64,000 nucleotides of DNA from a virus. Below are positions 16,385-60,378 of the stretch, in pieces. How positions within the stretch are numbered: the first letter of the stretch is position 1; every line of letters starts with the position of its first letter. Made by a program: the position numbers and the translations under genes. The notes under the pieces were generated by a model, which worked only from the letters and a program-made list of their open reading frames with translations, ran no database searches and had not been told where the DNA came from. The DNA lies in IMG/VR virus record IMGVR_UViG_3300010396_000002, positions 1 through 64,000 of that record; one strand, written 5' to 3'.

Positions 16385-17056
16385 TCAGCCCGGCGGGGGC
16401 TGAGGGGCCGCGTCGAGCGCCTTCTTCCGGAGCTGGATGAGCTTCGGCGGCGCCGGTTCCTTCTTCTCGCACTTGTCGGCGCGATAGGTCCGGCAGATGT
16501 CGGGGCGGTCCTTGTAGATCGTGCACCAGCCGGTCTCCTGGTCGAGGAAGACGCAGGCCATCGGCACCGCGTCCCCTTCGTACTTCGCCGTGCCGGCCCC
16601 CTTGTACGGCACGCGCTTGAGCTTGCCCACGTAGCCGGCAGGGTTTGGTTGAGGGAGAAGCTCGACCGCGGAGCGAGCGGTCCGCTTGCCCATCCGCGCG
16701 AAGTCCACGGCGTTGACCCCCACCAACTCGAAGACGCGCGCGCAGCACGCGCTGGTGCACTCCGCGCAGATCGCCTGCGAGTCGAGCAGCACGCCGCGCT
16801 CCTTCACCCATCGCAGCATGGCGTTGTTCACCTCCGCGACAGCCTGGCGCAGGTATTCGGGCTGCCGGGGGGAGTCGAGGCGGGCCGTCTCCGTCAACTC
16901 GCTGATGCCGGCGCCGGCGTGAGGCACGTTGAATGTCACGGTCGCCGTCTGCCCGGGGGCGTCGATCGTGACGGCGGCGAGGTCGATGAGCTCGAGCTTG
17001 GAGAGGGTGTCGTCCTTGGTCATGAGGACCGACTGTATGACAGTGCGCCGAGCCAT
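16385..17056 (-). CDS. YkgJ-type cysteine-cluster protein
   Basis: 223 residues. The second half has the YkgJ/Fe-S-oxidoreductase-like cysteine pattern: CAECTSACC near 97-105, a cysteine in ACVFLD, CTIYKDRPDICRTY near 178-191, and a following Cys. Proteins with this cluster bind zinc or iron, and some are linked to protein or tRNA modification. ATG at 17056 has GGAAGG five bases upstream; ATG at 17023 is an alternative that would leave the divergent promoter outside the gene. A second YkgJ-type gene is at 19675, which is unusual for a phage. Confidence 0.7.
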   Translation of the reverse strand: MARRTVIQSVLMTKDDTLSKLELIDLAAVTIDAPGQTATVTFNVPHAGAGISELTETARLDSPRQPEYLRQAVAEVNNAMLRWVKERGVLLDSQAICAECTSACCARVFELVGVNAVDFARMGKRTARSAVELLPQPNPAGYVGKLKRVPYKGAGTAKYEGDAVPMACVFLDQETGWCTIYKDRPDICRTYRADKCEKKEPAPPKLIQLRKKALDAAPQPPPG

Positions 17057-17078
17057 GCTACCTTCCGGTTCGGACGAC
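17033..17078 (+). promoter_or_regulatory. Promoter for the 17.1-21.6 kb operon, with operator-like -35
   Basis: CTGTATGACAG (17033-17043) supplies a TGACA-type -35; 15 bases later lies TGCTACCTT (-10 TACCTT at 17059-17064), then GGACGAC at 17072-17078. The same operator-to--10 spacing occurs before the gene at 54674, which supports a shared regulated promoter design. Confidence 0.6.
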
Positions 17079-17114
17079 TACCGGCGCGCCGCTGCGCGAC
17101 CGAAGGAGGATCCC

Positions 17115-17672
17115 ATGCCCACGAACATCCGTACGCTCAGGACCGAGGCGAAGACCGCGCTGACGGAGATGGCGAAGCGCCTCGTCGCACTCGCCGACGA
17201 GACCGGAGACCTCGTCACCGAATCGCGCCGCATCCTGCTTCTTACCAACGACCCCGGGCTCTGGCCGCATGCAATGGTCGAAGGCCCCAGCACCGATCAT
17301 CGCGCACTCGACCGCGCCCTTTCGATCGTCGGGGAGGTGAGCAGTTTCCTGGACAACTGGGCCGACTGCTCGCGGGACCGGAGGCCGACCCCGCAGGAGC
17401 AGTCGGAGGCGTACGGCAACGCGGCCGCGCTCGCGCGTGATCTGGCGAAGTTGTTGGACAAGAGGGGGCTCGTCGGTCGAAGCCAGATCGTCAACGACGC
17501 AGCGCCGTTGCTGGAGGAGCGTCGCCAGGAGCTGTTCGAGCAGGAGGAGCCGGAGCGCGACCGGCGCGGGCGAGAGTTCGCCGAGAACTTCCTGGAGCCC
17601 GCCGTCCAGGCGACCAGCGCCGCGGTCAAGGCCCTCTGCGCGCTCGCCGACGCGCTCTGCACGGAGGCGTGA
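17115..17672 (+). CDS. Hypothetical helical protein
   Basis: 185 residues; ATG preceded by AAGGAGGA. Almost entirely helical, with amphipathic repeats (1-35, 60-85) and an acidic C-terminal region around 140-155 (EEPERDRRGREF). First gene of a long plus operon. No motif recognised. Confidence 0.75.
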   Translation: MPTNIRTLRTEAKTALTEMAKRLVALADETGDLVTESRRILLLTNDPGLWPHAMVEGPSTDHRALDRALSIVGEVSSFLDNWADCSRDRRPTPQEQSEAYGNAAALARDLAKLLDKRGLVGRSQIVNDAAPLLEERRQELFEQEEPERDRRGREFAENFLEPAVQATSAAVKALCALADALCTEA

Positions 17673-17674
17673 CC

Positions 17675-17980
17675 ATGGGCATGTCGATGAACGTCGTCGG
17701 CATCAAGCCGGCCGATGAGAAGTACCAGCGAATGATCTCCGCACGTGACGCATGCCGTGCCGCCGGCGTTCCGATCCCCGAAGAGGTTCGCGACTTTTTT
17801 GGTGGGGATCCAGACGAGGCCGACCCGAGCGGCGTCACGATCTACTTCAAGCCGGGCGCGTCGTACCCGCCCCACGTCGGCGTTGTCCCCTACCAGTATG
17901 GCGAACGCCAAGGCTTCGAGGTCGACCTGCGAAGCCTCGACCCCGACATCAAGATCCTGCGCTTCTACTGCGCCTGGTGA
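17675..17980 (+). CDS. Hypothetical protein
   Basis: 101 residues from ATG at 17675 (GGAGG seven bases upstream; GTG at 17669 is an alternative that overlaps the previous stop). A helical N-terminal half is followed by a beta-rich end (VTIYFKPG, VGVVPYQYG, ILRFYCAW). Not recognised. Confidence 0.7.
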   Translation: MGMSMNVVGIKPADEKYQRMISARDACRAAGVPIPEEVRDFFGGDPDEADPSGVTIYFKPGASYPPHVGVVPYQYGERQGFEVDLRSLDPDIKILRFYCAW

Positions 17981-17989
17981 GGAGGGACC

Positions 17990-18475
17990 ATGCCCGACAT
18001 CGAGAAGATGAGCGAAGAGGAGATCCACAAGCACCTGGCCCAGCGCGCAGAGACGAGCGCACTGGCAGCCACACGCGAAGCCGGTGAGCGCTACGCCGCC
18101 ACCCACCCCGTCGTGGGTCGGTGGCGGGTCACCACGGAGGGGGACGTCGAAGGGAGAACCACGCGCGACCTCGGCGTGCATGTTGGCCACGTCGCCGACA
18201 TCGCGGCCACGCTCGCACCGCTGGTGCACTATGGGCTCGACTTCAGGCCGGAGCCAGAGCCGAAGACGCCGACGCTGCGCGGAGGCGCGGACATCTCCGT
18301 CGCCGTTCACGTTCCAGACGCTGGGTCCGCGTTCGATCAGATGACCCCGGAGCACCGGGCCGTCTTCGCCCGCGCCTGGTTCAGCCAGGCCACGGCAAAG
18401 CACGTCGTCACGCTGGAGGTCCGCGAGAGCAACCACTATGGCTGCGTGCTGCTGCGCATGAGGCCCATCCGATGA
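17990..18475 (+). CDS. Hypothetical protein
   Basis: 161 residues; GAGGAGGGACC precedes the ATG. A helical N-terminus (1-40) and a beta-rich C-terminal half ending NHYGCVLLRMRPIR. Overlaps the next gene by ATGA. Function unknown. Confidence 0.7.
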   Translation: MPDIEKMSEEEIHKHLAQRAETSALAATREAGERYAATHPVVGRWRVTTEGDVEGRTTRDLGVHVGHVADIAATLAPLVHYGLDFRPEPEPKTPTLRGGADISVAVHVPDAGSAFDQMTPEHRAVFARAWFSQATAKHVVTLEVRESNHYGCVLLRMRPIR

Positions 18476-18945
18476 GCACCATGGATCCACGGATCGACCC
18501 TTCGCGATACCTGCGCAACTCCGCGATCGAGGACTTCCGCACCCACCAGCGCCACCATCGCCGCAGCCTCATCTTCGGCGCGCTGATGGCCGCGTTCTGC
18601 GGCTACTCCACCATCTTGAGCGCGCAGCGCGATCCGTGGTGGGCCGGTGGCGTCAAGACACTGATGGTGCTCACCATCGCCGTCGTGGTCGTGCGCGACG
18701 TGATCACGGGTCGCCGGGAGTCGCGCATGCTCCTCCGGCGGGCCGTGATCGCCGTCCTCCGCGCCGACGGCCCGGCCTATGGCCTCGAGCTCCGCGAGAA
18801 GATCGGCATCGGCGCCTCGATCTACCCGTACCTCTGGGAGATCGAGGCCGAGGGCCTCGTGACGAGCGAGGAGCGCGAGGGGCTGCCCTGTCGAGGCGGA
18901 CGACCGCGTAGGTACTACCGGCTCGCCGAGAAGGGAGGCTCGTGA
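18472..18945 (+). CDS. Membrane-anchored PadR-like winged-helix protein
   Basis: 157 residues. A basic N-terminus, two hydrophobic segments (about 32-50 and 60-76), then a PadR-type winged helix from 85: RAVIAVLRADGPAYGLELRE, YPYLWEIEAEGLV, and the wing RRYYRLAEKG. In PadR proteins these elements bind operator DNA as a dimer. The fusion to membrane helices would hold the DNA-binding domain at the inner membrane, reminiscent of membrane-bound one-component regulators. Coupled by ATGA to both neighbours. Confidence 0.7.
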   Translation: MSTMDPRIDPSRYLRNSAIEDFRTHQRHHRRSLIFGALMAAFCGYSTILSAQRDPWWAGGVKTLMVLTIAVVVVRDVITGRRESRMLLRRAVIAVLRADGPAYGLELREKIGIGASIYPYLWEIEAEGLVTSEEREGLPCRGGRPRRYYRLAEKGGS

Positions 18946-19457
18946 TGGGCGCACACCTCACGCCCCAGGGCAAGTTCAAGAGCGACAAGTACCCCGAATG
19001 TCCCGAGGGCAAGGTCCCGCTGAGCACCAAGTTCGCCCGCGTCGGTGTCGCCGTTCTCGTCCGCCGCGGTGACGGGGCCCTCCTCATGGAGCTTCGCAAG
19101 GGGGCCCACGGCGCAGGAACGTGGAGCGTGCCCGGCGGCAAGCTCGAGCGCGGCGAGTCTGTCCTCCAGTGCGCGGCACGCGAGCTTCTGGAGGAGACCG
19201 GCCTCGCGCCAGCGGGCATCCGAGAGACCGGGGTCTACACCCTCACCCACTTCGAGGGCGGCGACTCCTGGGTCACGCTCTACTGCTGCGTCGATCTTCC
19301 CGGCTACCCGGTCGCGCAGGTCACCGAGCCGGAGAAGTGCGCGGAATGGCGGTGGGTGCCGTGGGTGCCGCCCGGCCCTGCGCCGGAGACGCTGTTCTCG
19401 TGCTTCGCGAGCCTCATGCGCGTCGCGCACCCGTGGACGCTTGGGAGGAACCGATGA
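18942..19457 (+). CDS. NUDIX hydrolase
   Basis: 171 residues. The Nudix box is intact at 66-88: G66, E72, then RELLEETGL with E81, E84 and E85 as metal ligands. A short N-terminal module (KFKSDKYPECPEGKVPLSTK, 11-30) resembles a small motif seen alone in other phage proteins, so this looks like a fusion. NUDIX enzymes hydrolyse nucleoside diphosphates linked to another group, such as oxidised nucleotides, NAD or capped RNA ends; the substrate cannot be read from sequence. Confidence 0.88.
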   Translation: MMGAHLTPQGKFKSDKYPECPEGKVPLSTKFARVGVAVLVRRGDGALLMELRKGAHGAGTWSVPGGKLERGESVLQCAARELLEETGLAPAGIRETGVYTLTHFEGGDSWVTLYCCVDLPGYPVAQVTEPEKCAEWRWVPWVPPGPAPETLFSCFASLMRVAHPWTLGRNR

Positions 19458-20106: not shown

Positions 20107-20117
20107 CCCGCGCGCGA

Positions 20118-20160
20118 CTGTCACACAGTCGCTTGACCCATCCCGATCGCTGTGTGACAG
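20118..20160. promoter_or_regulatory. Inverted pair of CTGTCACACAG operator motifs
   Basis: CTGTCACACAG at 20118-20128 and CTGTGTGACAG at 20150-20160 face each other, 32 bases start to start, in the only sizeable gap of the operon, upstream of the lipoprotein gene. They could act as an operator or, as RNA, pair into a hairpin. Confidence 0.65.
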
Positions 20161-20202: not shown

Positions 20203-20451
20203 ATGAACGTTCGCCATGTCATCGCGGTTGGTGTTGTCTCGGCTTTGCTTGCGCTCACCGTAGCCTCGGGCTGCTCGTCGTCGACGACCAACCCTGGCTG
20301 CCAGACGTCGGCCTGCTCCAACCCAACCTGCCCGTCAGGATGCGTCGCGGATCCGTACACCTACCTCGGTCAGTCGTGGTGGGAGTGCGATCCGGACGGG
20401 AGCGGCGACACCACCGCGGATAGCTGCCCGACGTGTGCGGCGTGCCAGTGA
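20203..20451 (+). CDS. Small cysteine-rich lipoprotein
   Basis: 82 residues; GAGGGAG precedes the ATG. Signal peptide (VIAVGVVSALLALTVASG) with lipobox TVASGC, so Cys24 would be lipidated. The mature part is Ser/Thr-rich with eight more cysteines. Phage lipoproteins of this size often exclude superinfecting phage or form outer-membrane spanins; neither is proven here. Confidence 0.78.
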   Translation: MNVRHVIAVGVVSALLALTVASGCSSSTTNPGCQTSACSNPTCPSGCVADPYTYLGQSWWECDPDGSGDTTADSCPTCAACQ

Positions 20452-24992: not shown

Positions 24993-25035
24993 GGTAGTGC
25001 CCTAATTTGCCTCCGAGTGCCCTAATTAGGGCAGG
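24993..25035. repeat. Left terminal inverted repeat of the element
   Basis: Begins GGTAGTGCCCTAATT, then after ten bases has the perfect palindrome TGCCCTAATTAGGGCA, ending GCAGG. The complement of the right end starts with the same 15 bases and ends with the same TTAGGGCAGG. Confidence 0.8.
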
Positions 25036-28186: not shown

Positions 28187-28230
28187 CCTGCCCTAATTTG
28201 AGGCGCGCTTGCCCTAATTAGGGCACTACC
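28187..28230. repeat. Right terminal inverted repeat of the element
   Basis: Ends TGCCCTAATTAGGGCACTACC; the complement begins GGTAGTGCCCTAATT as at the left end and also contains the 16-bp palindrome TGCCCTAATTAGGGCA. Confidence 0.8.
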
Positions 28231-34535: not shown

Positions 34536-34926
34536 GCCCAGACGGTACCACAAAAGCCGACAGCCCCCGGGTGGGTGCCCCAGGGCCGTGGCTGCCGCGT
34601 CTCTTGTTCCGTTCCTGGGGTCAGCCAGGGGCGCGGCTACGGGTCCGGGTTTAGAGGTAGTGGGCTCCGGTCAACCACTCATCTCAGCGAGCATGCCGTA
34701 TCGGTTCGACGAAGCAGCCCCAGTGGGCCGAGCGAGGTTCCACCGTAACACGTGGTGCCGCCCCCATGGAAGCCAAGAGCCCCGCTCCCGAGGGGAGGGG
34801 GCTCCTGGTTAGCCCAGCTTGGTCGGTACCTGGGACCGGCCTGTCGCCTCTGCCGAGGGGTCTTACTTCGCGGGGCCCCTTCGGTCAGAACTGCCGGCGC
34901 GACCCGGCCTAAAGCTGGCGCTGAGC
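34536..34926. ncRNA. Structured non-coding region, candidate RNA
   Basis: About 390 bases with no credible gene on either strand but rich in nested inverted repeats: CCGTGGCTGCCGCG (34586) with CGCGGCTACGG (34632), enclosing CCTGG/CCAGG (34614/34625); GAGCCCC (34777) with GGGGGCTC (34797). A weak tRNA-like fold (acceptor GGGGCTC/GGGCCCC) near 34797-34880 lacks a T-arm. It lies just downstream of the GIY-YIG gene and upstream of the leaderless gene. Strand unknown; an RNA function is inference. Confidence 0.35.
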
Positions 34927-35739
34927 CTAAGGCGTCGGCTGGCGCGGGGTCAAGCCAGCGGCGCGTCTCTCGTGCGCTGCCCGGAGCGAGGCGCTTTTCT
35001 TCGTTGCTGTCGCAGCGCGCTCCTCTTGGGTCTTTGCAGCCATCGTCGCCACGGCCTTCGCTCGGCCCTTGAGCGAGATCGCGCGGCGCTCCTCCGGCGT
35101 CTGCGCCGCCTTGCGCGCCTTCGCAGCTTCGGACATCCGACGCCGTGTCTCGTCGCCGATCGAACCTGGCCCGTCGCCCCCCTTGGTCCCGTTGTAGCCA
35201 AGCGAAGGATCATCAGAACCGAAGTGCTCGACCCACCACGACTCGGCATCGTTCGCCGCGCCCTGACCCTCAACCTCTTCGAGCACTTCGGGAGCAAAGG
35301 CGTTGGCACCGTGCTTCGCCATTGCAAGGTGAAGCCGAAACGTCGGGCGCGGCTGCCGTGCGTGTGACAGGTGCTCCAACCATCTTGCGCCGAGCTTGCG
35401 CCGCGTGATGCCGACGTAGCGCTTCTGGTCCGGCGCATGCGTTACGCAGTAGACGATGAAGCGTCCCTGCGCGCTCGCCTGCATCTTGTCTCGCCGGGCG
35501 TCCCTCGTCGCCGTCCTAGTCTCATTGTGGCAACTTGGGCATGCGGCGACATGCCCTTCTTTTGATACCTTGCGCAACGCGCACAAGCTTCGCACGAGTT
35601 CGACACCGCAGACGCAGCGACAGAGCCAGAAGCGTCCGCTCGCACGCGCGCCAGCGGGTCGCTCCGCTGGCCGGAGCGCGGTCAGCTTGCCGAAGACATC
35701 GCCCGTAACGTCGTGAGCACGACGGGTCCTGTGATCCAC
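34927..35739 (-). CDS. GIY-YIG homing endonuclease-like protein
   Basis: 270 residues. The GIY-YIG core spans about 92-180: FIVYCVT (94-100) and YVGIT (108-112), Arg in LGARWLEHLSHAR, and a late SWWVEHFG with the catalytic Glu region. The first 75 residues carry Cys residues (C40, C42, C44, C67, C70) of a zinc module common in homing enzymes, and the C-terminal 90 residues are Lys/Arg/Ala-rich, a likely DNA-binding arm. A GTGATACGCT -10-like element precedes it. It lies 12 bases from the end of terL, a frequent homing neighbourhood. Confidence 0.8.
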   Translation of the reverse strand: MDHRTRRAHDVTGDVFGKLTALRPAERPAGARASGRFWLCRCVCGVELVRSLCALRKVSKEGHVAACPSCHNETRTATRDARRDKMQASAQGRFIVYCVTHAPDQKRYVGITRRKLGARWLEHLSHARQPRPTFRLHLAMAKHGANAFAPEVLEEVEGQGAANDAESWWVEHFGSDDPSLGYNGTKGGDGPGSIGDETRRRMSEAAKARKAAQTPEERRAISLKGRAKAVATMAAKTQEERAATATKKSASLRAAHERRAAGLTPRQPTP

Positions 35740-40954: not shown

Positions 40955-40987
40955 CTGTGTGACAGCGCTCGGGCGCGTGTGTGACAG
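40955..40987. promoter_or_regulatory. Two direct CTGTGTGACAG-type motifs
   Basis: CTGTGTGACAG at 40955-40965 and GTGTGTGACAG at 40977-40987, 22 bases apart and in the same orientation, in the gap between genes ending at 41034 and starting at 40860. Confidence 0.65.
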
Positions 40988-42772: not shown

Positions 42773-42831
42773 CTGTCACACAGTCGGCTTGCCCACGACG
42801 GCTCACTGTGTGACACTCGGACCTGGACGAC
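42773..42831. promoter_or_regulatory. Operator pair and leader of the 42.9 kb operon
   Basis: CTGTCACACAG (42773-42783) and CTGTGTGACAC (42806-42816) face each other, 33 bases apart. The second overlaps the expected -10 position, and GGACGAC follows at 42825-42831 before AGGAGGACCC and the ATG at 42865. Confidence 0.6.
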
Positions 42832-42864: not shown

Positions 42865-43158
42865 ATGCCCGATCGAAGAGAAGAACCGCTGCCCACCTGG
42901 GCAACGCGCGTCATTAGCCGCACGGAACGCCACAGCACTGGCGTGAGCTACGCCGTCCTCGTCGAAGACGACGACGCCACGGACGCGCACGGCATCGGTC
43001 TCGGCGAGGGCCGCCGCTTGGCCATCTGGACCACCGAGGTGTTCTTCGGCGCGACCGACTCGCACTGCTCCGGCGGGGTCGCGTTCGTCATGGCGGCACG
43101 CGAGCAGGACCGCATCGCGACCGAGACCTGGGCCCGCCTCTCACGCGGGGAGGGCTGA
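42865..43158 (+). CDS. Small hypothetical protein
   Basis: 97 residues; AGGAGGACCC before the ATG. Beta-rich with an acidic loop (VEDDDATDAHG). First gene of a long plus operon controlled by the operator pair upstream. Confidence 0.7.
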   Translation: MPDRREEPLPTWATRVISRTERHSTGVSYAVLVEDDDATDAHGIGLGEGRRLAIWTTEVFFGATDSHCSGGVAFVMAAREQDRIATETWARLSRGEG

Positions 43159-47640: not shown

Positions 47641-47811
47641 CGGCTCCGGCCTCGCGAGCATCTCGGCGAGCTCGTCCTGGGTGAAGATCATCGGGAGCGC
47701 GCACTGTCCAGGGGGCGGCTCCGGGATCGGCGGGCGCGTGAAGGCCAGGAACCAGGCACAGTACGAGCAGACGTCGGGACCGTTCGGGTCGCGTGGGCAG
47801 ACGAGCTTCAC
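47575..47811 (-). CDS. Small Cys-containing protein
   Basis: 78 residues from GTG at 47811 overlapping the previous stop (GTGA). CSYC near 15-18 and a conserved-looking FTQDELAEML helix. Converges with the plus operon and overlaps its last gene. Confidence 0.58.
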   Translation of the reverse strand: MKLVCPRDPNGPDVCSYCAWFLAFTRPPIPEPPPGQCALPMIFTQDELAEMLARPEPSGAALGASHHDGESAKGGERF

Positions 47812-48155
47812 CGCGACACCTGCGCCAAGGACGTTGGAGCATGCACCGTCCAGTGCAACCAGGCCTGCATGCACGCTCGCCAGTAGTTGACGTCCCGGAC
47901 CATCATCGTCCTGTTCTGGGCTGCCAGGATCTGCTCTTGATCTGCGGCTCGCTCGTGCACGAGGTGTTCGACCGGCCATGGCGCCTTGAAGAAAGGGAGG
48001 GCCTTCCGGAGGGCGACCCTCGCGTCATGCACCTCGGGCGGTGGCCAGAGGCATCTGTCGGCGTCCTTCGCTGTCAGCAGCGTCAGGAGAGCGTCCAGGG
48101 CCAGATGGATGGCGCGGGCGGCTTCCTGCGGGTTGGTCGGGTTGGTGTCGTCCAT
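47808..48155 (-). CDS. Hypothetical protein
   Basis: 115 residues starting MDDTNPTNPQEAARAIHLAL. Helical throughout. The start is directly preceded by GGACCGGGC and the operator at 48171, so it belongs to the same regulon as the divergent gene at 48242. Its first residues (MDDTN) match those of the gene at 54674, hinting at a shared start region. Confidence 0.66.
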   Translation of the reverse strand: MDDTNPTNPQEAARAIHLALDALLTLLTAKDADRCLWPPPEVHDARVALRKALPFFKAPWPVEHLVHERAADQEQILAAQNRTMMVRDVNYWRACMQAWLHWTVHAPTSLAQVSR

Positions 48156-48170: not shown

Positions 48171-48236
48171 CTGTCACACACCCTGGTCGCGCACTGTGTG
48201 ACAACTTGCGGATCCCCCTGCTGCACTGTATGACAG
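48171..48236. promoter_or_regulatory. Three operator motifs between divergent genes
   Basis: CTGTCACACAC (48171), CTGTGTGACAA (48194) and CTGTATGACAG (48226), spaced 23 and 32 bases. The last ends six bases before the ATG at 48242, so bound protein would block that start. Confidence 0.7.
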
Positions 48237-48241: not shown

Positions 48242-50008
48242 ATGGCGAGAGCGAAGAAGCCTGAGAAGCAGGCGGCCGCAGTCGTGCGCAAGCGGCCGAT
48301 CCTGTCGTGCACGGTGAGCCCCGAGGTCCGAGCCAAGATCGACGAGCAGGCCGAGGCGGAGGAGAAGACCGTCGCGGACGTGGTCGACGCGAGGCTCCGG
48401 ATCGGGTTCGGGATGGACTGCCCAGCGGCCCCCGTAGAGGCGCTCCCGCCCGACGTCGAGGAGGACATCGTCGACCGGGGCCGCGCGACCGGGCACGACC
48501 GGCTGACAACCATCGCGGAGCTGGTGCGGCTCGGGTTCCTCTACAACCGGCGGATGCTCGAGACGCTCGACGAGGGCGTGAAGCTGGCGACGCGCCCTCC
48601 GCCGCCAGGTGTACCGGCCGAGATCGGTTGGCACCGGCGCGAGGCCGACGCGCGGGTGCTCGGCAGCCTCCGCGGCAAGCTCGACCTTCCGGAACTGGAG
48701 GACGGCGAGGCTGAGGGCGGGTACCGCGAGGTCGACGTCGCGTTGCACCAGCACGCGGCCACGAAGTATGCCGAGGCCGCTGGTGGCGTCGCCTGCGTGC
48801 TCTGCGGCGCGCCCGTTCCGGAGTTCCCGGTGCAGCGGTCCTGCACGAAGGCGCGCTCGAAGGGCCAGACCTGCATGCGGTTCTGGGCCTGGATCCGCCC
48901 GAACAAGGAGACGGAGGCCTACGACGTCACGAAGATCGCCGAGACGATGGGCGGCCGCGCATGCCTCGTCGGCACCCGCATGCCCGTCTCCACCGTCATC
49001 TCCTGGCACGAGCAGGGCGGGTGCGCCGAGGTCCGCCAGCAGTACCCGCACCTGACCGAGGAGCAGATCCACGTCGCGCTCGCCTACGCCGAGGCGTTCC
49101 CGGAGGAGATCGCCGCAGAGCTCGGCCACTGGCCCAAGCACGTCGAGTACCCGCTCTGCGCGTGCGAGCGGTGCCAGACGCTGTACGGCCCCAACTACCG
49201 CGGGCACTGCATGTGCGACGCGACGGGCGAAGATGGGCGGTCCTTCCTCGACAAGGTCGGAACGCGGATCGCAGAGGCTCCGGCATGCTGCCATGCAACA
49301 TGGAAAGATGGCCGCTGGTGCCACCATCCGAAGTGCGTTCATGGGGACGAGAAGCCTCCGCGTCCGCCGCTCATCGTCGAGGTGCCCACGCTGCTGTCGC
49401 TAGTCCGCGACCAACTCCCCAAGCACGGTGCACCGTCGCGCGAGGACGTCGTGGCCGAGGCCCAGGAGCGACTCCGCCGAGCCAATGCGGACCGTCTGGC
49501 CAACGAGTCGACCGACAACGGGGCGACGCATCCTGCCATGATCGACGCCATGCGCCGGAAGGGCCTGCTCAAGACCGCCGACGAACTGGCGGCGATCCCC
49601 GTCGTGCACGTCACCGCCGGCCCCCATGCACAGCAGGAGATGGCTGCCCTCCGCGCGAGGGGAGTCCTCTTCACCTCCGACGAGCCAGAGCAGGACGGAG
49701 CCGACCGAGTCGGGGCCGTGCTCGACGGGGAGCCCGCATCGGGGGCCAGGACGCTGGTGCTGACCGAGCCCCTCGTCTACCAGACCACCACCGTCGACAT
49801 CGACGGCGAGGGCAAGACCACCACCACGATCGACCCGCGGCCCGTCGTGGACTTCGTGCCCGATGCGGGCCAGCAGGACTTCTACGCCGAGGAGCCCTTC
49901 GTCGAGCGCCGGGTCGTCGACTACGACGCCGACCCTCGGCGAGGCCGTGGCGAGCCTCCGCCGGAACCGAAGCCTGACCAGCGTCGTCGGCGCGGGAGGC
50001 GGGGGTGA
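48242..50008 (+). CDS. Large protein with RHH-like start and DUF433 domain
   Basis: 588 residues. Residues 18-56 resemble a ribbon-helix-helix (ILSCTVSPEVRAKIDEQAEA), with a second helical pair at 72-105. CVLC and more cysteines follow (185-212). Residues about 228-290 match DUF433: CLVGTRMPVSTVISWHEQGG then YPHLTEEQIHVALAYAEAF. A Cys/His-rich part (about 300-365) and an acidic, Pro-rich tail complete it. DUF433 usually stands alone as a short antitoxin-like or DNA-binding protein; here it sits in a long phage protein with operators at its start codon. Confidence 0.72.
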   Translation: MARAKKPEKQAAAVVRKRPILSCTVSPEVRAKIDEQAEAEEKTVADVVDARLRIGFGMDCPAAPVEALPPDVEEDIVDRGRATGHDRLTTIAELVRLGFLYNRRMLETLDEGVKLATRPPPPGVPAEIGWHRREADARVLGSLRGKLDLPELEDGEAEGGYREVDVALHQHAATKYAEAAGGVACVLCGAPVPEFPVQRSCTKARSKGQTCMRFWAWIRPNKETEAYDVTKIAETMGGRACLVGTRMPVSTVISWHEQGGCAEVRQQYPHLTEEQIHVALAYAEAFPEEIAAELGHWPKHVEYPLCACERCQTLYGPNYRGHCMCDATGEDGRSFLDKVGTRIAEAPACCHATWKDGRWCHHPKCVHGDEKPPRPPLIVEVPTLLSLVRDQLPKHGAPSREDVVAEAQERLRRANADRLANESTDNGATHPAMIDAMRRKGLLKTADELAAIPVVHVTAGPHAQQEMAALRARGVLFTSDEPEQDGADRVGAVLDGEPASGARTLVLTEPLVYQTTTVDIDGEGKTTTTIDPRPVVDFVPDAGQQDFYAEEPFVERRVVDYDADPRRGRGEPPPEPKPDQRRRRGRRG

Positions 50009-51529: not shown

Positions 51530-54345
51530 CGGTTGCCACCATGCAGGCCGCGCGCGATGAGGAGCGCCCCAACAACGGCCGAGCATGCCGTGTCCGTGTC
51601 GAAGCGCTGGAAGGTGTCGCGCTGCGGGTCGCCGGCGCTCAGGACCATGTCGCCACCGTTCACGCTGTCCGTGTCTTCGTTGGTCTCCACCCAGACGTAC
51701 TCGACCTTGCCGAACGCCTCGGCGAGGCTCTGCTCGCCGGAGAGCGCGCGCAGCGCCTTGCGACGCTTCATCCGCTCGTCGTAGCGGCCAAGGATGGCGT
51801 ACTCGGCGCCGGTGAGCGTGTCTCCTCGCGCCTCGGATCGCATGTCCTCGTAGGTCTGCACCAGCGGCGGGATCCCGTCCGCGTCCGCGTACCAGAGCAC
51901 CGCCTCGCGGGACATCCAGCGCCCGGAACCACGCCTCGCCTCGTGTTCGTGGAGCCCGTCCAGGCATTCGGCGACGTGATCCACCGTCAGCATGTCCCGC
52001 GGCGGGAAAGGGGGTGCCCCCTCGAGCATGGCGAGGATCGTGCGGCGCCTGACCTCGATCAGCCAGGCAGGGAAGGGGTGCTCGGCCGCATCCTCGGCCA
52101 GGAGGTGCTCGACCTCGCGGGTCACCCAGAGCTCGGACTGGAGGATCGCGACGAGGACCGCGCCCATGTCGACGACGGTCTGCCACCAGAGCGCCTCAGC
52201 GGCCGCGGCGAGCAGCGCGCAGAACGCCGGCATCTGGCTCGCCGCCACGACGAAGCTCACCGCAGGCATGTGATCCATGAGGCTCCGCGTCAGCCGGAAG
52301 CACTTGGCCATGATCTCGACGCCGCCGCTGACGTAGAGCGCGACCTCACCATGCCCGCGCCGCACGCAGAGCACGGGCACGCCGAGCGCCTTGGCAGCGG
52401 TCTGCTCGATGCCATGCACGGTCGGGCCCGCGAACTCGATGGGCGCAGACGGATCGGGCATCTGGAAGGCTCGAGCCGCCCAGTTCGCATGCTCCCCCGT
52501 CGTCGGGTGCCGGACGTTGGCGAGGTGCTCCTGCTCGCAGCTCGTGAAGACCATGCTCGTGAAGACCTCGAGCCCCTGCTCCGTCGGGACCCACCACTTC
52601 GCCACGAACGTGAGCCGCGGGTCGACCTCGCCCCTGTCGTTGAGGCCGTGGTTGACGATGCAGCGGAGCAGGCCCGCCGTGCCGGCCTTGCCTACGCGGA
52701 ACGCGTTGATGCGCGCGAGCGCGGGCTCACCACGGCTGTGCGCCATGATCTGGTTGAACTGCGCGGGCGTCGTCGTCTCGTCGGTAGCGACGACCTGCCA
52801 AGCGACGTGCATGACGCCGGCGACGCTCCGGAGCTGGGCCACGAGCATGCCTTCGGGCTCCAGCTCCGTGCTCAGCGTGCGGAAGTCGAACGCAGCGGAG
52901 GGGGCCGGAGCGTCGAGACGCAGGCTGCCGTCGGGGTCGGCGAGCATGGTGCGCGGCTTCTCGACCAGCTCGGCGGCGATGTGCTTCGCCGCGGTCTTCC
53001 GCGAAGCGACGTACTGCCGGTACGCCGTGCACCGCTCCATGTGGGCGAGCCCAGCGCCCGCGGTTCCCTCGCGTACGGTGCCGCAGGCCGGGCAGACCTC
53101 GACGTTGCCGCGCTCTTCCCAGAAGGCTGGACGGTCCTGCGACGAGCCGCTGGCCACGCATCGGAGCTGCCCGTCGGACGTCTCCACGACCTGGCCAGGC
53201 GTGTATGACGCCGGGCGCGTCTTCCCGGAGCCGTCGCGCACCACCAGCGTGTTCGGCTCGACCTTGCGCCAGCGGTCTGGCTCGGCGCGCACGCTCTCGA
53301 ACGAGAGCCGGCCGCTCGTGCCAATCGTGAAGCACTCGTCGCTGGTGACCTCGCCGAGGACAGCGCTCGAGACGCCCTCCCGCTCACCGGGACGGGCCCG
53401 GATGGCATACTCCCACGTCTCGTCGACGAGCACGTGCCTGCCGTCTTCCAGCGCGACGCCGATGCACTCCCAGTGCTTGACGACGTCCGCTTTGGAGAAG
53501 ACCCAGCCAGGCCTGTCGAAGATGACCTGCTCGCCCGGCGTGCTCATGACCGTGGCGGTCCCGATCTTTGCGCGCCACACCTGATGCTGCGCCGGCTGGA
53601 CCTGGTCCTGCTTCTCCGCCCGCACGTCGATGCGCAGCACGCCGCAGCCGTTGATCTCCTGGCCCTGGGGAAGCACCCACTGCCACTTCGGGTGCTCCAC
53701 GCCTCGGTCGACTGCGCGCACCACGTCGTCGAGCGCTCCGCGCAGCACGCGCAGTCCGGCCTCGCGCGCACAGATCCAGAACGTTCCCTCGGCCTGTGCC
53801 TGTGGCCAGTCATCGCTGGTCATGCGGTGCAGCGTCAGGACGCGCGCGCCCAGCACAGGCCCCACGTCCAAGATCCGAAGCTTGTGCTCGATACAGTGCC
53901 ACACCGCGTCGCGGAGCTTGGCCATGTCTTCGCGTGAGCCGCTCAGCGTGAGCGAGGCGCGCTCGTCCAGCTTGCCGGTGATGCCCCCGGCCTTGGTCCA
54001 CTCGGCGGGCTCGCCCTCGAGCAGTGCCTCCTCAGTCGTGCCGCTCTTGCTCATGTGTGTGACGTGGCACTGCCCCTCGCACGTACGCTCGCCGTCGACG
54101 ATCTTGTAGGTGATCGTCCGAGCCTCGACGAAGGCGTCGTGGAGGCCTTCGTCCCTCCCATTCACGGTGAAGATGATCTTGCGGCTCGCCTTCCCGGGCA
54201 CAGACCACAGACTTCGGGGAGGCCGTGTCCGCTCGCGAGCGCGCCACGTTGCGACCGCGCTGGTCTCGAGGAGCTGCCCGTCGAGGTAGAGCCGCGCCGA
54301 CTCCGCGCACTCCGACTGCTGCTGGCTGTAGTTGGTGTCAGTCAC
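51526..54345 (-). CDS. Very large protein of unknown function (939 residues)
   Basis: The longest gene in the window. No signal peptide. Residues 40-160 are beta-rich; 225-260 and 290-330 contain strand-loop repeats; CPACG near 420 with a later Cys/His (MERCTAYR) suggests a zinc finger; 490-620 is beta-rich with several FTS segments; 700-760 includes a hydrophobic helical stretch (MPAFCALLAAAAEALWW); the C-terminal 150 residues are helical and charged. I see no Walker, polymerase, nuclease or protease motif. ATGA junctions on both sides. Confidence 0.7.
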   Translation of the reverse strand: MTDTNYSQQQSECAESARLYLDGQLLETSAVATWRARERTRPPRSLWSVPGKASRKIIFTVNGRDEGLHDAFVEARTITYKIVDGERTCEGQCHVTHMSKSGTTEEALLEGEPAEWTKAGGITGKLDERASLTLSGSREDMAKLRDAVWHCIEHKLRILDVGPVLGARVLTLHRMTSDDWPQAQAEGTFWICAREAGLRVLRGALDDVVRAVDRGVEHPKWQWVLPQGQEINGCGVLRIDVRAEKQDQVQPAQHQVWRAKIGTATVMSTPGEQVIFDRPGWVFSKADVVKHWECIGVALEDGRHVLVDETWEYAIRARPGEREGVSSAVLGEVTSDECFTIGTSGRLSFESVRAEPDRWRKVEPNTLVVRDGSGKTRPASYTPGQVVETSDGQLRCVASGSSQDRPAFWEERGNVEVCPACGTVREGTAGAGLAHMERCTAYRQYVASRKTAAKHIAAELVEKPRTMLADPDGSLRLDAPAPSAAFDFRTLSTELEPEGMLVAQLRSVAGVMHVAWQVVATDETTTPAQFNQIMAHSRGEPALARINAFRVGKAGTAGLLRCIVNHGLNDRGEVDPRLTFVAKWWVPTEQGLEVFTSMVFTSCEQEHLANVRHPTTGEHANWAARAFQMPDPSAPIEFAGPTVHGIEQTAAKALGVPVLCVRRGHGEVALYVSGGVEIMAKCFRLTRSLMDHMPAVSFVVAASQMPAFCALLAAAAEALWWQTVVDMGAVLVAILQSELWVTREVEHLLAEDAAEHPFPAWLIEVRRRTILAMLEGAPPFPPRDMLTVDHVAECLDGLHEHEARRGSGRWMSREAVLWYADADGIPPLVQTYEDMRSEARGDTLTGAEYAILGRYDERMKRRKALRALSGEQSLAEAFGKVEYVWVETNEDTDSVNGGDMVLSAGDPQRDTFQRFDTDTACSAVVGALLIARGLHGGNR

Positions 54346-54674
54346 GAGCCGCTCCCGTCCGCGGGCACGTCCTCACCGGCCCTCTTCTTCAGTGCGTCGG
54401 CGATCCACTTGTCCCCCTTGGTCAGGTCGTACTCGATGGTCGCGATCAGATCGCGCTTGGTGAAGACCCCGTAGTTGCCGCCGAGTCGTCCTCGGATGCC
54501 ATCGAGCACGCCGTACGTGATCGTCGGCTCCTGTTGGAGGGTCGGCTTCGCGTCGGGACAGAGGGCGCGAGCCTGATCCCCTCCGAGCGCGACGTGCTGC
54601 ACGACGCGTTGGTAGAGTTGGTAGAGTGCCAGCGCCTCGTCGGCGTTCGGCTTGAAGCTGTTGGTGTCGTCCAT
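54342..54674 (-). CDS. Hypothetical protein, probably leaderless
   Basis: 110 residues (MDDTNSFKPNADEALALY). Helical N-terminal half, then a region resembling a small winged helix (ITYGVLDGIRGRLGGNYGVF). The promoter ends seven bases before the ATG. Confidence 0.7.
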   Translation of the reverse strand: MDDTNSFKPNADEALALYQLYQRVVQHVALGGDQARALCPDAKPTLQQEPTITYGVLDGIRGRLGGNYGVFTKRDLIATIEYDLTKGDKWIADALKKRAGEDVPADGSGS

Positions 54675-54681: not shown

Positions 54682-54713
54682 AGGGTACCACTGCCTGGCG
54701 CGCTGTCATACAG
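54682..54713 (-). promoter_or_regulatory. Operator-type promoter for the gene at 54674
   Basis: On the minus strand: CTGTATGACAG (54713-54703), 15 bases, then TACCCT (54687-54682) inside GTGGTACCCT. Geometry identical to 17033-17064. Transcription would start almost at the ATG. Confidence 0.6.
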
Positions 54714-55245
54714 TCGACGGGAAGACCTCGACCAGTGCGACGACGTGCCGCTCGAGGTTGGCGACGACGTGCGGGAAGTGCTCCCTGAGCGCGGCCAGCA
54801 TCGACGGCGTGTCGTGCTCGCCTTCCATCAGGAAGACGCTGTTGCAGGCCCCGCGCTCGTCGCCCTGGCAGCGGTCCCACCAGGCCAGCGCGGTGAAGCC
54901 GTTGTCGAGGACGTGCCGCAAAAACTGGCCTTGCGGAAGCTCGTCGGCGTCGTAGTGAACGCGCTCGCTCTCCTCCTTGGTGGTGCCCTGGCCCTGCCAG
55001 CAGAGCGCGCCACCGTGCCGCCACCTCCAGCGCTTGGGCGCGAGCGTTCCATCCAGGTGGTGGCGATGGGCGCCGCGCCGATACCACTCCAAGCCATCGT
55101 CGTAGACCGTGCGCCCGCCCGGCGCGTGCAGGAAGTGGCCCGACTGGTTCCAGCACCCGAAGTAGTAGACCTCCCTCCACGCTGTGTGACAGCGCTGGCT
55201 GCACTGTATGACACCCGCTTGCGCTGGTCCACACAGCCGTGTCAT
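54706..55245 (-). CDS. Hypothetical phage protein, start unresolved
   Basis: The recognisable protein starts about VYYFGCWNQSGHFLHAPGG (near 55171) and runs 155 residues to 54706. Proteins with a YYFGCW...GHxL opening are frequent in phages. GGAGGGAGG lies just before, but no ATG, GTG or TTG follows in frame; the nearest in-frame ATG is 55245, which would put three operator copies inside the gene. A base change or indel at the start is likely. Promoter and operators at 55182-55249 presumably belong to it. Confidence 0.6.
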   Translation of the reverse strand: MTRLCGPAQAGVIQCSQRCHTAWREVYYFGCWNQSGHFLHAPGGRTVYDDGLEWYRRGAHRHHLDGTLAPKRWRWRHGGALCWQGQGTTKEESERVHYDADELPQGQFLRHVLDNGFTALAWWDRCQGDERGACNSVFLMEGEHDTPSMLAALREHFPHVVANLERHVVALVEVFPSTV

Positions 55246-55249
55246 ACAG
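55182..55249. promoter_or_regulatory. Three operator motifs upstream of the 54.7 kb gene
   Basis: CTGTGTGACAG (55182), CTGTATGACAC (55204) and GTGTCATACAG (55239), spaced 22 and 35 bases. The RHH gene lies 64 bases further on. Confidence 0.68.
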
Positions 55250-55312: not shown

Positions 55313-55543
55313 TCAGACCACCAGGATCTCCCGCTCGGTGCCGTCCTCGGCGCGCATGATGATGCGGCAGCGCTGGTCACGGGCGAGGATCAACTCCTCG
55401 TAGAACGTGAGCGCGCGCCGGATCGCCTCCGTCTTGCTGTCAGCCTCCGAGAGCGCCACCACGCGCTCGAGCCTGGCCTTCGTGCGCTCGGGCAGCTCCA
55501 GGCTGAGACGGGTCTTCGGCTCCGTGCTCGCCGGCCGCGGCAT
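55313..55543 (-). CDS. Ribbon-helix-helix (CopG/Arc-type) DNA-binding protein
   Basis: 76 residues. TRLSLELPERTKARLERVVA forms the ribbon and helix A, SKTEAIRRALTFYEELI is helix B with the conserved turn, so residues 10-55 are a full RHH. The short C-terminal part is beta-like (CRIIMRAEDGTEREILVV). RHH dimers bind short repeated palindromes cooperatively, so this is the best visible candidate to bind the CTGTRTGACAG repeats on either side (inference). Confidence 0.8.
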   Translation of the reverse strand: MPRPASTEPKTRLSLELPERTKARLERVVALSEADSKTEAIRRALTFYEELILARDQRCRIIMRAEDGTEREILVV

Positions 55544-57416: not shown

Positions 57417-57564
57417 CTGTCACACAGTACCGTGGCGTCGTGTATGACACAACCGGCCGGCGCTGTCACACAGTGCGCTCAGTTGCCGCGAGCTCGCTTC
57501 TTCTTCGCTGTCATACAGACCTCCAGCACTCTGTCATACACCAGCCGCAGCCGCTGTCACACAG
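57417..57564. repeat. Iteron-like array of six CTGTCAYACAG motifs
   Basis: Copies start at 57417, 57440, 57463, 57508, 57531 and 57554: intervals of 23, 23, 45, 23 and 23 bases, about two turns of the helix, with one copy-length gap. The first, third, fourth and sixth are exact CTGTCAYACAG; the second (GTGTATGACAC) is inverted and the fifth ends C. The spacers are slightly less GC-rich than the genes. This could be an origin, a partition site or a multi-site operator. Confidence 0.78.
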
Positions 57565-58288
57565 CGGACGGTGGGGCCCCTGAGCCAGGTCCCTGCCCGC
57601 CCTGTCCAGGCGGCTGCGGGACGGGGAGGCCGTGCTTCTGCGCCATGTGGGCCAGGAGCTTCGCTGTCGCCTCCGGTCCAAGGGCCTCCCGGACGCCGGC
57701 CAGGAACACCTCGGACTGGTGCCGGAGCACTTCGGCCTCGGTCACGGAGGGCGGCGGAGCTCCGGGGATGCCGGCCCAGTCGTCTGGGTAGTGCCGCTCG
57801 AGTTGGCGCCGCATCTCGGCCGCGCTGCCCTTCGATAGCTGCTGGAGCATGATGGCCCAGAGGTTGTGGCGGGTCGAATCGACATGCCTCCAGAACTCCA
57901 CAAACGCCTTGAACGGCTGCTTTGCCTTCACGGGGAAGCCGTCGTTCTTGTGGTCGGTGCCCTCCACGAACCAGAACGCCAAGGTCGCCAGGGGCACGCC
58001 TTGCTGCTGGAAGGCTGGATTGCGCTTCGCGCCTTGGATGAAGAGCGACGCCGCCTTGACCACCGCTTGGAAGTCCATGGTGAGCGGGTGGCCGACCTTG
58101 CCATCCTTGGCCTTGAAGGCGGCCTCTAGCTCGCCCCTGAAGTTCTCCTCGTGCTTCTTTTGGGCGGCAAGGATGCCCCTGAACTCCGCGTTGAGGGGAT
58201 CTTCGGGCTTGAACGGGTTCTCGAGGAAGTCTGACCAGTGCGGGTCGGCCTTTCGCTTGCGCTTGGTCTGGCGGGGCTTCTGGGGCAT
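57557..58288 (-). CDS. Hypothetical 243-residue protein
   Basis: From ATG at 58288 (MPQKPRQTKRKRKADPHW). Basic start, then a helical alpha-type body with WSDFLENPFKPED and a Trp/His-rich middle (VEFWRHVDSTRHNLW), and a Pro/Gly-rich tail. Its 3' end touches the repeat array. Not recognised. Confidence 0.7.
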   Translation of the reverse strand: MPQKPRQTKRKRKADPHWSDFLENPFKPEDPLNAEFRGILAAQKKHEENFRGELEAAFKAKDGKVGHPLTMDFQAVVKAASLFIQGAKRNPAFQQQGVPLATLAFWFVEGTDHKNDGFPVKAKQPFKAFVEFWRHVDSTRHNLWAIMLQQLSKGSAAEMRRQLERHYPDDWAGIPGAPPPSVTEAEVLRHQSEVFLAGVREALGPEATAKLLAHMAQKHGLPVPQPPGQGGQGPGSGAPPSAV

Positions 58289-58313
58289 GGCTTCAGGAAT
58301 GCGGGTTTCGGGG

Positions 58314-58847
58314 CTATGTGGCACGCGCGCGCGGCTTCTCGGCCGAGTAGGCGTCTGCCAGGACGAGACGGGAGCGGCAGTTCGAGCAGGTGACCTTGGG
58401 GCGGTCGCGGGTGACGGTTCCGGCGTCGGCGATCCGGATCGCGGCTCGGCCGGAGCAGCACACCGGGAACCCCCGGGTAGCCACGACGATGCCGTGGGCG
58501 GCACTCCTCCACCGCAGGGGGCCGGCGTAGTGGGTTCTCGGGCCGGGCTTGGCCGGTGCGGGGGTCGGTTCGTCGGCGGTCCCCATGCGTTCGTGGAGTC
58601 GGCTGAGCTCGAGGTCGATGCGGGCGGGAGGGAGGCCGGCGGTGGCGAGCCAGTGCCGGAAGCCGTCTTCGGAGAAGAAGGTGAGGGAGGTGAGGCGGTC
58701 GTGGGCGGTGGAGGGGGGGAGGCCCTTGCGGATCTGCTCGGCGACGAGCTGGGCGCCGGAGGCGAAGGCTTCGCGCTCGTGTCGGGGGGTCCAGGTCACG
58801 GGGTCCTCGACGGGCAGGGCGGCCAGCCGCTCGGCCTTCGTGTTCAT
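58314..58847 (-). CDS. Hypothetical protein with Cys sites
   Basis: 177 residues from ATG at 58847 (ATGA). Helical first 90 residues; CC near 131 and CSNC near 156-159 may bind zinc. Unknown. Confidence 0.65.
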   Translation of the reverse strand: MNTKAERLAALPVEDPVTWTPRHEREAFASGAQLVAEQIRKGLPPSTAHDRLTSLTFFSEDGFRHWLATAGLPPARIDLELSRLHERMGTADEPTPAPAKPGPRTHYAGPLRWRSAAHGIVVATRGFPVCCSGRAAIRIADAGTVTRDRPKVTCSNCRSRLVLADAYSAEKPRARAT

Positions 58848-59197
58848 TGGTCGGCCCTCCGGCATCTGCACCAGTCGCACTCAGGCTCGACGTGATGGCA
58901 GCCGTGCACCTTGCCGGAGCGGAGGACACAGCCGGTGCAGCCCTGCGCGTAGGAGCACGGGGTGCCGCACCAGCCGCTCTCGTGAACGGCGGGACGGCCG
59001 CATGGGCAGACGTCCGCGGTCGAGCCCGTCGCCGTGAGCCGGAGAACGGCGGCAGGATCCTTCGCGCGGAGCTGCTCGCCGATCGAGGCGGACGTCGAGG
59101 GACGGTGCTGGAGCATGTCGTAGGTGACGAAGGCCCGGTCGACGGCCTCGCGGCGCATCATGAGGGCGGGGACGTCGACGATGCGGCGTCGGCTCAT
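58844..59197 (-). CDS. Cysteine-rich protein
   Basis: 117 residues. Helical first half; second half has eleven cysteines (CPCGRPAV, CGTPCSYAQGCTGCVL, CHHVEPECDWCRC), probably several zinc sites. ATGA links on both sides. Confidence 0.66.
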   Translation of the reverse strand: MSRRRIVDVPALMMRREAVDRAFVTYDMLQHRPSTSASIGEQLRAKDPAAVLRLTATGSTADVCPCGRPAVHESGWCGTPCSYAQGCTGCVLRSGKVHGCHHVEPECDWCRCRRADQ

Positions 59198-59418
59198 AGT
59201 TGCACCTGGAAGGCGTCGGCGAGCGGCCGGAAGCCTACCCGCTGGCTGAGCATGGCGACGAGCGCACGGCCGTCAGCGGCCAGCTTGACCGTCATGCGGG
59301 CCACGTCGTCAGGGCTCAGGTCGAGCCCGGAGAAGGCGACCGCCGTCATCGTCAGGAGCGAGCCCAGAGACAACAGCGACAGCCGAGGAGACACGCGAGG
59401 CTTGGGTGCGTCGTCCAT
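59194..59418 (-). CDS. Small protein with one hydrophobic segment
   Basis: 74 residues; hydrophobic stretch at about 13-30 (LSLLSLGSLLTMTAVAFSG), possibly membrane-associated, then a helix. Unknown. Confidence 0.6.
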   Translation of the reverse strand: MDDAPKPRVSPRLSLLSLGSLLTMTAVAFSGLDLSPDDVARMTVKLAADGRALVAMLSQRVGFRPLADAFQVQL

Positions 59419-59427
59419 GATCTACCT

Positions 59428-60030
59428 CTACCACGTAGGACCGATCGTTGAGTCACCACGCCCGAGCATCTCCTGTTCGCGACGCTTCTCGTCCGCTGCG
59501 ATGCCCTTCGCGATCTTGTCGAACATGATCTTGGCATAGTCGGGAAACGGCCCCGTCAGCGCATCGACGGGGAGGGAGAGCGACATGCGGCACGGCTTGA
59601 CCTCGGCCGCGTCCATCGGCGCGCGCTCAGGTTCTTGGCGCGGTTCGGGCTCCCACGGCACGACACGGACCGCGACGCACGGAACGCCGCCGGGAATCTG
59701 GCCGCGGTGCGCCAGCGACATCCGGCCCTCAACCCATCGTTCGCCGTCCCATTCGAGCGGAAGTGCTGCGCTCAAGAAGAGCTCGGTCACGCGCCAGACC
59801 CCGACGCGTCCTGGGATCTCCACCGGCTCCCGTGACCTCCCGGCCTCAGCCGCGCGGAAGCGACTTTCGGTCCATGTGCCCTTGCGCTTGGGCACGAAGA
59901 GAATCGGCTCGCGGAAGCCGATCCCCAGGTAGAACCCGTGCTCGTCGTAGTCCTTCACCGCTTCGAGCTTGCCGACGAGCACTTGCTCGACCATGATGTC
60001 TTCCGCAATCTGCTTGATCCAGTCGTTCAT
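59428..60030 (-). CDS. Hypothetical protein
   Basis: 200 residues. Helical start (MNDWIKQIAEDIMVEQVLVG), beta-rich middle with many Glu/Arg, helical end. ATGA link with the preceding gene. Confidence 0.68.
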   Translation of the reverse strand: MNDWIKQIAEDIMVEQVLVGKLEAVKDYDEHGFYLGIGFREPILFVPKRKGTWTESRFRAAEAGRSREPVEIPGRVGVWRVTELFLSAALPLEWDGERWVEGRMSLAHRGQIPGGVPCVAVRVVPWEPEPRQEPERAPMDAAEVKPCRMSLSLPVDALTGPFPDYAKIMFDKIAKGIAADEKRREQEMLGRGDSTIGPTW

Positions 60031-60338
60031 CGTGAGCCCTTGGTCTTGTCCACGACCTTGTGCTTGCCCGCGGCGACGTCGGCGGCGAGCTGCTCCAGCT
60101 TCTTGCGCTGCTTGTCAAAGCTCTTCTTCTTCGCCTCCACCATCTGGAGAACGCGGGCCCGCGCCGCTGCCTCGCCGCGGTGCCAGTCCTTCGGGGCAAG
60201 GCCCAGCGGGTTTGCTTGGCGCCCGCCGATCGGGAAGGCCGTGCTTCCAATGATCTCGACGCGCACCAACTCGATGCCGCGGGCGAGCGCGGACTTGGTC
60301 ACGTAGACGACGGCGATCTCTCGCTCGGCTGTGGGCAT
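60027..60338 (-). CDS. Basic helical hypothetical protein
   Basis: 103 residues from ATG at 60338. N-terminal strand region (REIAVVYVTKSALARGI), then a Lys-rich coiled segment (VEAKKKSFDKQRKKLEQL). The start lies seven bases after an operator copy, so it is probably leaderless. Confidence 0.66.
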   Translation of the reverse strand: MPTAEREIAVVYVTKSALARGIELVRVEIIGSTAFPIGGRQANPLGLAPKDWHRGEAAARARVLQMVEAKKKSFDKQRKKLEQLAADVAAGKHKVVDKTKGSR

Positions 60339-60345
60339 GCCCGTA

Positions 60346-60378
60346 CTGTATGACAGAAGCTGTGCCGCTGTCACACAG
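60346..60378. promoter_or_regulatory. Two operator motifs before the gene at 60338
   Basis: CTGTATGACAG (60346) and CTGTCACACAG (60368), inverted and 22 bases apart. On the minus strand the first reads CTGTCATACAGTACGGGC directly before the ATG, so it covers the likely -10 (TACAGT). Confidence 0.68.

Follow-up and report, generated by a model that had tools for sequence, protein, structure and literature searches.

What does a short repeat do that recurs again and again between the genes of a large phage? The question is raised by a 64,000-nucleotide stretch of viral DNA (the window), which forms the first 64 kb of the 155,559-bp virus record IMGVR_UViG_3300010396_000002 (GC 69%) and in which a sequence-only reading had noticed about 22 copies of the 11-bp motif CTGTRTGACAG. 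That reading attributed the copies to one phage DNA-binding protein that acts cooperatively at dispersed sites, like the stoperators of mycobacteriophage L5, and suggested scans of the full genome and its relatives as well as statistics on spacing. In this study, the observation was confirmed and the interpretation was partly supported, since its outline was right but its specific model was wrong. On balance, the sequences lead us to favor the view that the repeats are promoter-overlapping operators of one phage-encoded ribbon-helix-helix (RHH) regulator, probably a repressor.

The phage in question (the window phage, 155.6 kb) is uncultured and belongs to a group of large GC-rich phages without a close cultured relative. 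A 123-bp direct repeat is common to both ends of the record, which suggests a whole, circularly assembled genome; the remainder of the record beyond the window was covered as loci L001–L005. Genes were called by a small codon-model script, and the calls are approximate, with a few starts amended by eye. The chance expectation for motif counts in the window was derived from dinucleotide shuffles.

The window contains 21 copies of the pattern STGTRTGACAS, compared with an expectation of 0.12 (shuffle maximum 1), which rules out a chance or low-complexity origin of the motif. With CTGTGTGACAA at 48194, which has one flank mismatch, the window holds 22 sites, and every copy listed by the sequence-only reading was recovered. 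Exact CTGTRTGACAG matches total 16 across the record, 14 of them within the window, compared with 0 for a reversed control pattern. The scan of the full 155,559-bp record yielded 25 sites, and the three beyond the window lie together at 116881, 116904, and 116936 (span 116881–116946). The distribution is thus not genome-wide as had been claimed, with 22 of the 25 sites confined to 17–60 kb. Moreover, weight-matrix scoring yields hardly any intermediate sites, and the site set is therefore sharp. The motif is a near-palindrome, S-TGT-NNN-ACA-S, whose asymmetry is confined to the central RTG/CAY (CTGTGTGACAG is representative). The sites of the window are as follows.

17033..17043, + strand: single site CTGTATGACAG, in the gap separating the divergent genes g19 (−) and g20 (+), at 9 bp from the ATG of g19
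20118..20128, − strand: site CTGTGTGACAG, paired with 20150 at 32 bp
20150..20160, + strand: site CTGTGTGACAG, upstream of a small lipoprotein-like open reading frame starting at 20203
40955..40965, + strand: site CTGTGTGACAG, 94 bp upstream of g58 (−)
40977..40987, + strand: site GTGTGTGACAG, 22 bp from the 40955 site
42773..42783, − strand: site CTGTGTGACAG, 38 bp upstream of g62 (−)
42806..42816, + strand: site CTGTGTGACAC, 48 bp upstream of a + gene at 42865, in a divergent promoter region, forming a 33-bp pair with 42773
48171..48181, − strand: site GTGTGTGACAG, 15 bp upstream of a − gene starting at 48155
48194..48204, + strand: site CTGTGTGACAA, one flank mismatch
48226..48236, + strand: site CTGTATGACAG, 5 bp before the g71 ATG
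54703..54713, − strand: single site CTGTATGACAG, 28 bp upstream of the g77 (−) ATG
55182..55192, + strand: site CTGTGTGACAG, upstream of g78 (−)
55204..55214, + strand: site CTGTATGACAC
55239..55249, − strand: site CTGTATGACAC
57417..57427, − strand: array site 1, CTGTGTGACAG, immediately ahead of the g81 Shine-Dalgarno sequence
57440..57450, + strand: array site 2, GTGTATGACAC
57463..57473, − strand: array site 3, CTGTGTGACAG
57508..57518, − strand: array site 4, CTGTATGACAG, at a distance of 45 bp from site 3, equal to twice a 22.5-bp step and leaving one slot empty
57531..57541, − strand: array site 5, GTGTATGACAG
57554..57564, − strand: array site 6, CTGTGTGACAG
60346..60356, + strand: site CTGTATGACAG, read on the reverse strand as CATACAGT followed by 6 nt and the g85 ATG, over a putative leaderless −10
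60368..60378, − strand: site CTGTGTGACAG, 22 bp from the 60346 site

The 25 sites fall into ten clusters, comprising two single sites, four pairs, three triples (48194 counted), and one six-site array. The description of the copies as often paired therefore holds for most clusters, the limit being the two single sites. Fourteen adjacent pairs lie within 60 bp of each other, whereas 0.8 would be expected under random intergenic placement. With 48194 included, neighbors are spaced by 22 bp (three times), 23 bp (six times), 32 bp (three times), 33, 35, and 45 bp, mostly the 22–23 or 32–33 bp that had been reported, and the steps of the six-site array (57417–57564) are 23, 23, 45, 23, and 23 bp. 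The spacing is non-random and matches two and three helical turns (phase P ~1e-5).

The preference for intergenic DNA was also borne out. Based on our own gene calls, 17 of 24 site centers are non-coding, compared with 18% of the genome (P 2e-8), and the remaining centers lie either within the final codons of a gene or at a gene start that is doubtful or drawn too long. All ten clusters are upstream of at least one gene, and for unambiguous starts the distance to the start codon is 5–94 bp. The putative promoters of the window phage, assigned from sequence alone, contain extended −10 elements such as TGNTANCCT, which are located either 6–7 nt before the ATG (leaderless) or ahead of a Shine-Dalgarno leader. 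For g71, the sequence TATGAC, which overlaps the motif, is 7 nt ahead of the ATG, a distance that would suit the −10 of a leaderless gene. Similarly, CATACAGT lies 6 nt (g85) and 8 nt (g19) before the ATG and overlaps the motif. For g81, the motif directly precedes the Shine-Dalgarno sequence GGAGGAGG, while for g77, the ATGACA of the motif is 16 bp upstream of the TACCCT in the extended −10 TGGTACCCT, i.e., in the −35 position. Collectively, these arrangements suggest that the sites overlap core promoters. None of the genes behind the sites has a known function. As a separate observation, two of these genes, 47808–48155 (−) and 54342–54674 (−), have in common the start region MDDTN as well as the sequence CCGGGCATGGACGACACCAAC, which suggests a duplicated promoter-start module.

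To what extent is this arrangement shared with relatives? The sole related phage found, IMGVR_UViG_3300035695_000001 (G002), is 162,811 bp long with a 127-bp terminal repeat; its terminase is 65% identical to that of the window phage, and the structural genes are largely collinear. The scan of this relative gave a mixed answer, since G002 has 0 sites of the STGTRTGACAS type but carries a network of its own with a different motif. An unbiased word count found 45 copies of TGCTAGACA in G002 against 0.18 expected. These sites have the form STGCTAGACAS (representative CTGCTAGACAG), 38 of the 45 are intergenic (84%, P 2e-24), and there are 17 close pairs, often 19–25 bp apart (19–20 and 23–25 bp). 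Together with variants such as CTGTTAGACAG, the G002 motif has the same outer STG...CAS shape as that of the window phage; the variants CTGTTAGACAG and TGCTAGACT lie upstream of h52, h112, h113, h143, and h146. Helical phasing is weak in G002 (P 0.003–0.035), and the proposed whole-turn spacing thus stands for the window phage but only weakly for its relative. Because G002 has an independent network with another motif, the reading of one protein at many sites is strengthened: the sequences argue for a single sequence-specific binder at dispersed sites, as had been proposed, while its cooperativity is plausible from the pairing only.

An array of the six-site type is absent from G002, where the sites are mostly pairs and singles. 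This bears on the idea that the 57.4-kb array is the main element of centromere-like sites or replication iterons, with the dispersed copies as auxiliaries and a ParB-like or Rep protein as the binder. The 22.5-bp step of the array and the ParB-like proteins encoded by the window phage would suit such a role. However, most sites are paired upstream of genes, the relative has no comparable array, and no ParA (PF13614) was found in either phage; we consider this idea extremely improbable, and a partition site was rejected given the missing ParA match.

The orientation of the sites bears on a further possibility, namely that the motifs are promoter elements or activator boxes for middle genes, similar to those of T4 MotA, at which a phage factor at −35/−10 recruits polymerase. 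Of the 26 gene-proximal sites in G002, 22 are directed toward the gene and four away from it (P 5e-4), probably because the site doubles as an extended −10 element. The four copies of TGCTAGACT in G002 are placed where the extended −10 of leaderless genes would sit; in this phage, one set of bases appears to form both operator and −10 element. The biased orientation and the −10 placement would suit promoter boxes, as would the resemblance of RTGACA and TAGACA to the −35 sequence TTGACA. In the window phage, however, the orientation is mixed (8 toward the gene, 4 away, P 0.39), the start-codon distances range over 5–94 bp, and the motif has no −10 likeness in a fixed register. Six-site arrays and inverted pairs would also be unexpected of promoter boxes, and we regard this explanation as unlikely.

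Which protein, then, might recognize the sites? Two genes of the window phage are the leading candidates.

48242..50008, + strand: gene g71, 588 amino acids, with an RHH-like N-terminus plus DUF433 and three sites in its own promoter region
55313..55543, − strand: gene g79, 76 amino acids, RHH_1 (CopG-type), encoded third in the g81-g80-g79 operon, which follows the six-site array

In g71, the RHH-like N-terminal domain spans approximately amino acids 14–58, and the DUF433 domain spans amino acids 230–283 (Pfam E 4e-13). The N-terminus is homologous to h121 of G002 (85 residues, 32%, E 6e-8); where g71 has R18 and S22 in the putative RHH strand, h121 has S and A in the alignment. Both g71 and h121 have three motif copies upstream, the nearest being 5 bp (g71) or 7 bp (h121) before the ATG, and no other gene pair common to the two phages has sites in both. 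The AlphaFold models of both proteins show two helices after an extended segment, which fits the RHH topology at low confidence. Moreover, the top Foldseek matches of the h121 core in the PDB are almost all RHH proteins (VapB, CopG-DNA, NikR, CdbA, MazE, and Arc). From these sequence and model data, we give g71 about an even chance of being the binder.

Several observations weigh against this reading. That one common gene pair should carry sites in the two phages would be expected from chance (P 0.44), the three-sites-in-both arrangement being rarer (about 0.01, a rough product from counts). The pLDDT (predicted local distance difference test) values of the structure models are 52 and 68, the monomer forms no strand, and all Foldseek matches of h121 have E ≥ 0.49. 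In addition, g71 has no Pfam RHH match, and a PDB sequence search with the g71/h121 alignment returned nothing credible. G002 encodes a LexA-type DNA-binding protein, h123, near h121, which is a possible binder in that phage, and g79 likewise lies in an operon behind six sites. Finally, the gene calls underlying the argument stem from a home-made caller.

The position of g79 allows for the same operator network with a different binder, such that g79 would autoregulate g81-g80-g79 via the six-site array and repress the other promoters. Among 25 of the 27 families in the Pfam scan of the window phage (150 proteins), RHH_1 (g79) and PadR (g23) are the only DNA-binding domains of classic regulators, and GntR, TetR, and XRE do not appear. 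g79 is the sole clear RHH_1 protein in the genome-wide scan (E 8.9e-6, 25.9 bits vs a cut-off of 20.5), its gene comes third in the operon that follows the largest array, and G002 lacks both g79 and the window-phage motif. However, G002 runs an equivalent network without a g79 homologue, a homologue (45% identical) is present in the unrelated contig G001 without the motif, and the array does not adjoin the start of g79 but lies 1.9 kb upstream. The g79-based network seems doubtful to us, and we hold g79 to be a possible but rather improbable binder, with the remaining probability assigned to something else. Two other binder types were rejected. The GTNNNAC geometry recalls GntR/FadR-type operators, but no GntR-family protein is among the Pfam families listed (25 of 27 for the window phage, 25 of 39 for G002), a host GntR being conceivable. 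A LexA/SOS box has similar CTGT/ACAG half-sites, but it is at odds with the 3-bp spacer and the variable spacing of the pairs, and the window phage encodes no LexA.

In the favored explanation, that of promoter-overlapping operators of an RHH regulator, each STGT-NNN-ACAS near-palindrome would bind one dimer, and the spacing of two or three helical turns within pairs and arrays would allow neighboring dimers to cooperate. The bound dimers would then cover the −35/−10 region or the transcription start of approximately ten phage transcription units, including that of the regulator itself, which would most likely be the RHH N-terminal domain of g71 (h121 in G002). The DNA-contacting strand and the operator would have diverged together between the two phages. 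Protein binding, repression, cooperativity, and the identity of the protein are what we infer from these data. More tentatively, a family of large GC-rich phages might control a regulon through an RHH protein (a DUF433 fusion in the window phage) on paired short palindromes, with the recognition strand and all 25–45 operators switched together between two relatives and, in one of them, the operator copying the extended −10 so that operator and promoter coincide.

Known RHH proteins offer a partial precedent. RelB reads [A/T]TGT[A/C]A hexads as palindromes, with one dimer per 12-bp palindrome and adjacent dimers sharing a DNA face (PMC2812701). The TGT/ACA half-sites of RelB and CopG are close to TGT-NNN-ACA, and RelB is autoregulated, but the RelB palindromes abut with no spacing allowed, whereas the centers in the window phage are 22–23 or 32–33 bp apart; RelB also governs one operon, unlike the network of approximately ten units proposed here.

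Among phage systems, the C1 repressor of P1 acts on 22 dispersed operators and turns down many lytic genes as well as its own promoters (PMC8546580). Near-identical promoter-region sites dispersed far above chance are likewise present in the window phage. In contrast, the P1 operator is 17 bp and asymmetric (ATTGCTCTAATAAATTT) rather than 11 bp, near-palindromic, and paired, and P1 is a plasmid prophage, while no temperate gene was found in the window phage. The SPBRE of SPbeta, a short repeat in many promoter regions, was first spotted in silico, and subsequent work established it as the operator of the master repressor MrpR (PMC10516654). The likeness lies in a short repeat across the promoter regions of a large phage genome; SPBRE differs in being a 15-bp motif of a lysogen with a tyrosine-recombinase-like binder, the candidate binder here being an RHH protein. 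In cluster K mycobacteriophages, SAS/ESAS repeats lie near the start codons of a gene subset, and ESAS is inverted with variable spacing and a lineage-specific consensus (PMC3203893). Repeats near the start codons of some genes are common to both, but SAS is a 13-bp asymmetric sequence tied to translation starts, whereas the window-phage sites are at predicted promoters, often before the Shine-Dalgarno sequence.

The L5 sites named in the sequence-only reading are 13-bp and asymmetric, with predicted monomer binding and an orientation that correlates strikingly with transcription; the stoperators are in short intergenic spaces, are proposed to halt elongation, and include many sites outside promoters (PMC9283540, PMC6550527). 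Like the window phage, L5 has more than 20 dispersed sites; in the L5 clade, one of the repressor-bound sites has been proposed to control the gene of the repressor itself. A strict stoperator reading would have repressor-bound sites within operons halt elongating polymerase and maintain lysogeny. The sites are indeed dispersed, intergenic, and short, and the site of the sister phage has diverged, which parallels cluster A mycobacteriophages, where motif and repressor drift jointly between relatives (PMC6550527). However, the window-phage motif is near-palindromic and of mixed orientation, and all ten clusters are upstream of genes at predicted promoters. Furthermore, neither a tyrosine integrase (PF00589) nor ParA (PF13614) was matched in either phage, and therefore a role in lysogenic immunity is not indicated; serine integrases do not appear in the Pfam tallies, no genome-wide search having been aimed at them. 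The strict analogy with L5 is consequently not supported, and halting at stoperators is very unlikely.

Dispersed-operator networks are known from a few temperate phages, and the window phage is a clear case found from sequence in a large phage group. As two relatives carry two versions of the motif and a homologous candidate regulator, they provide a natural experiment on the joint change in specificity of a regulator and dozens of sites. Searches with the terminase, tail sheath, h121, and the g71/h121 alignment retrieved no close relative besides G002, and only distant terminases were matched in genome, plasmid, and named-phage collections. A paired-motif scan of other viral contigs gave 22 stretches, which are local repeats in contigs of different composition rather than a shared motif, and three of these contigs, when examined further, contain no dispersed network. 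One 32-kb contig (60% GC in the part read) has a GTGTCATACAS pair 23 bp apart directly before a gene start (L033:1974–2007), with two copies only in the contig. Several viral contigs of 46–56% GC (L012–L032, e.g., L012:5824 and L019:12124) have in common a different, unrelated-looking local direct repeat, GTGTCACACAG-ACACC, near short palindromes. In IMGVR_UViG_3300031712_000006 (approximately 34573–35660), at least 13 copies of the repeat CCACCTACTCATAATCGGATCAACAC are mostly ~72 bp apart, a spacing resembling a CRISPR array, and the same contig carries a g79 homologue with an internal stop codon.

Two minor features of the record deserve mention. A different palindrome, TGCCCTAATTAGGGCA, is present at 24999–25033 and 28190–28225 of the window, with the half-site AAATTAGGGC 20–21 bp away at each. 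The two places are 3.2 kb apart and flank a lower-GC stretch with few good gene calls; from the sequence, they look like operators of another regulator or the borders of an inserted element. Finally, the window and L001–L004 contain DNA-modification genes encoding DpdA (deoxypurine in DNA, Pfam E 2e-85), Mom, several methyltransferases, and PAPS-reductase-like proteins.

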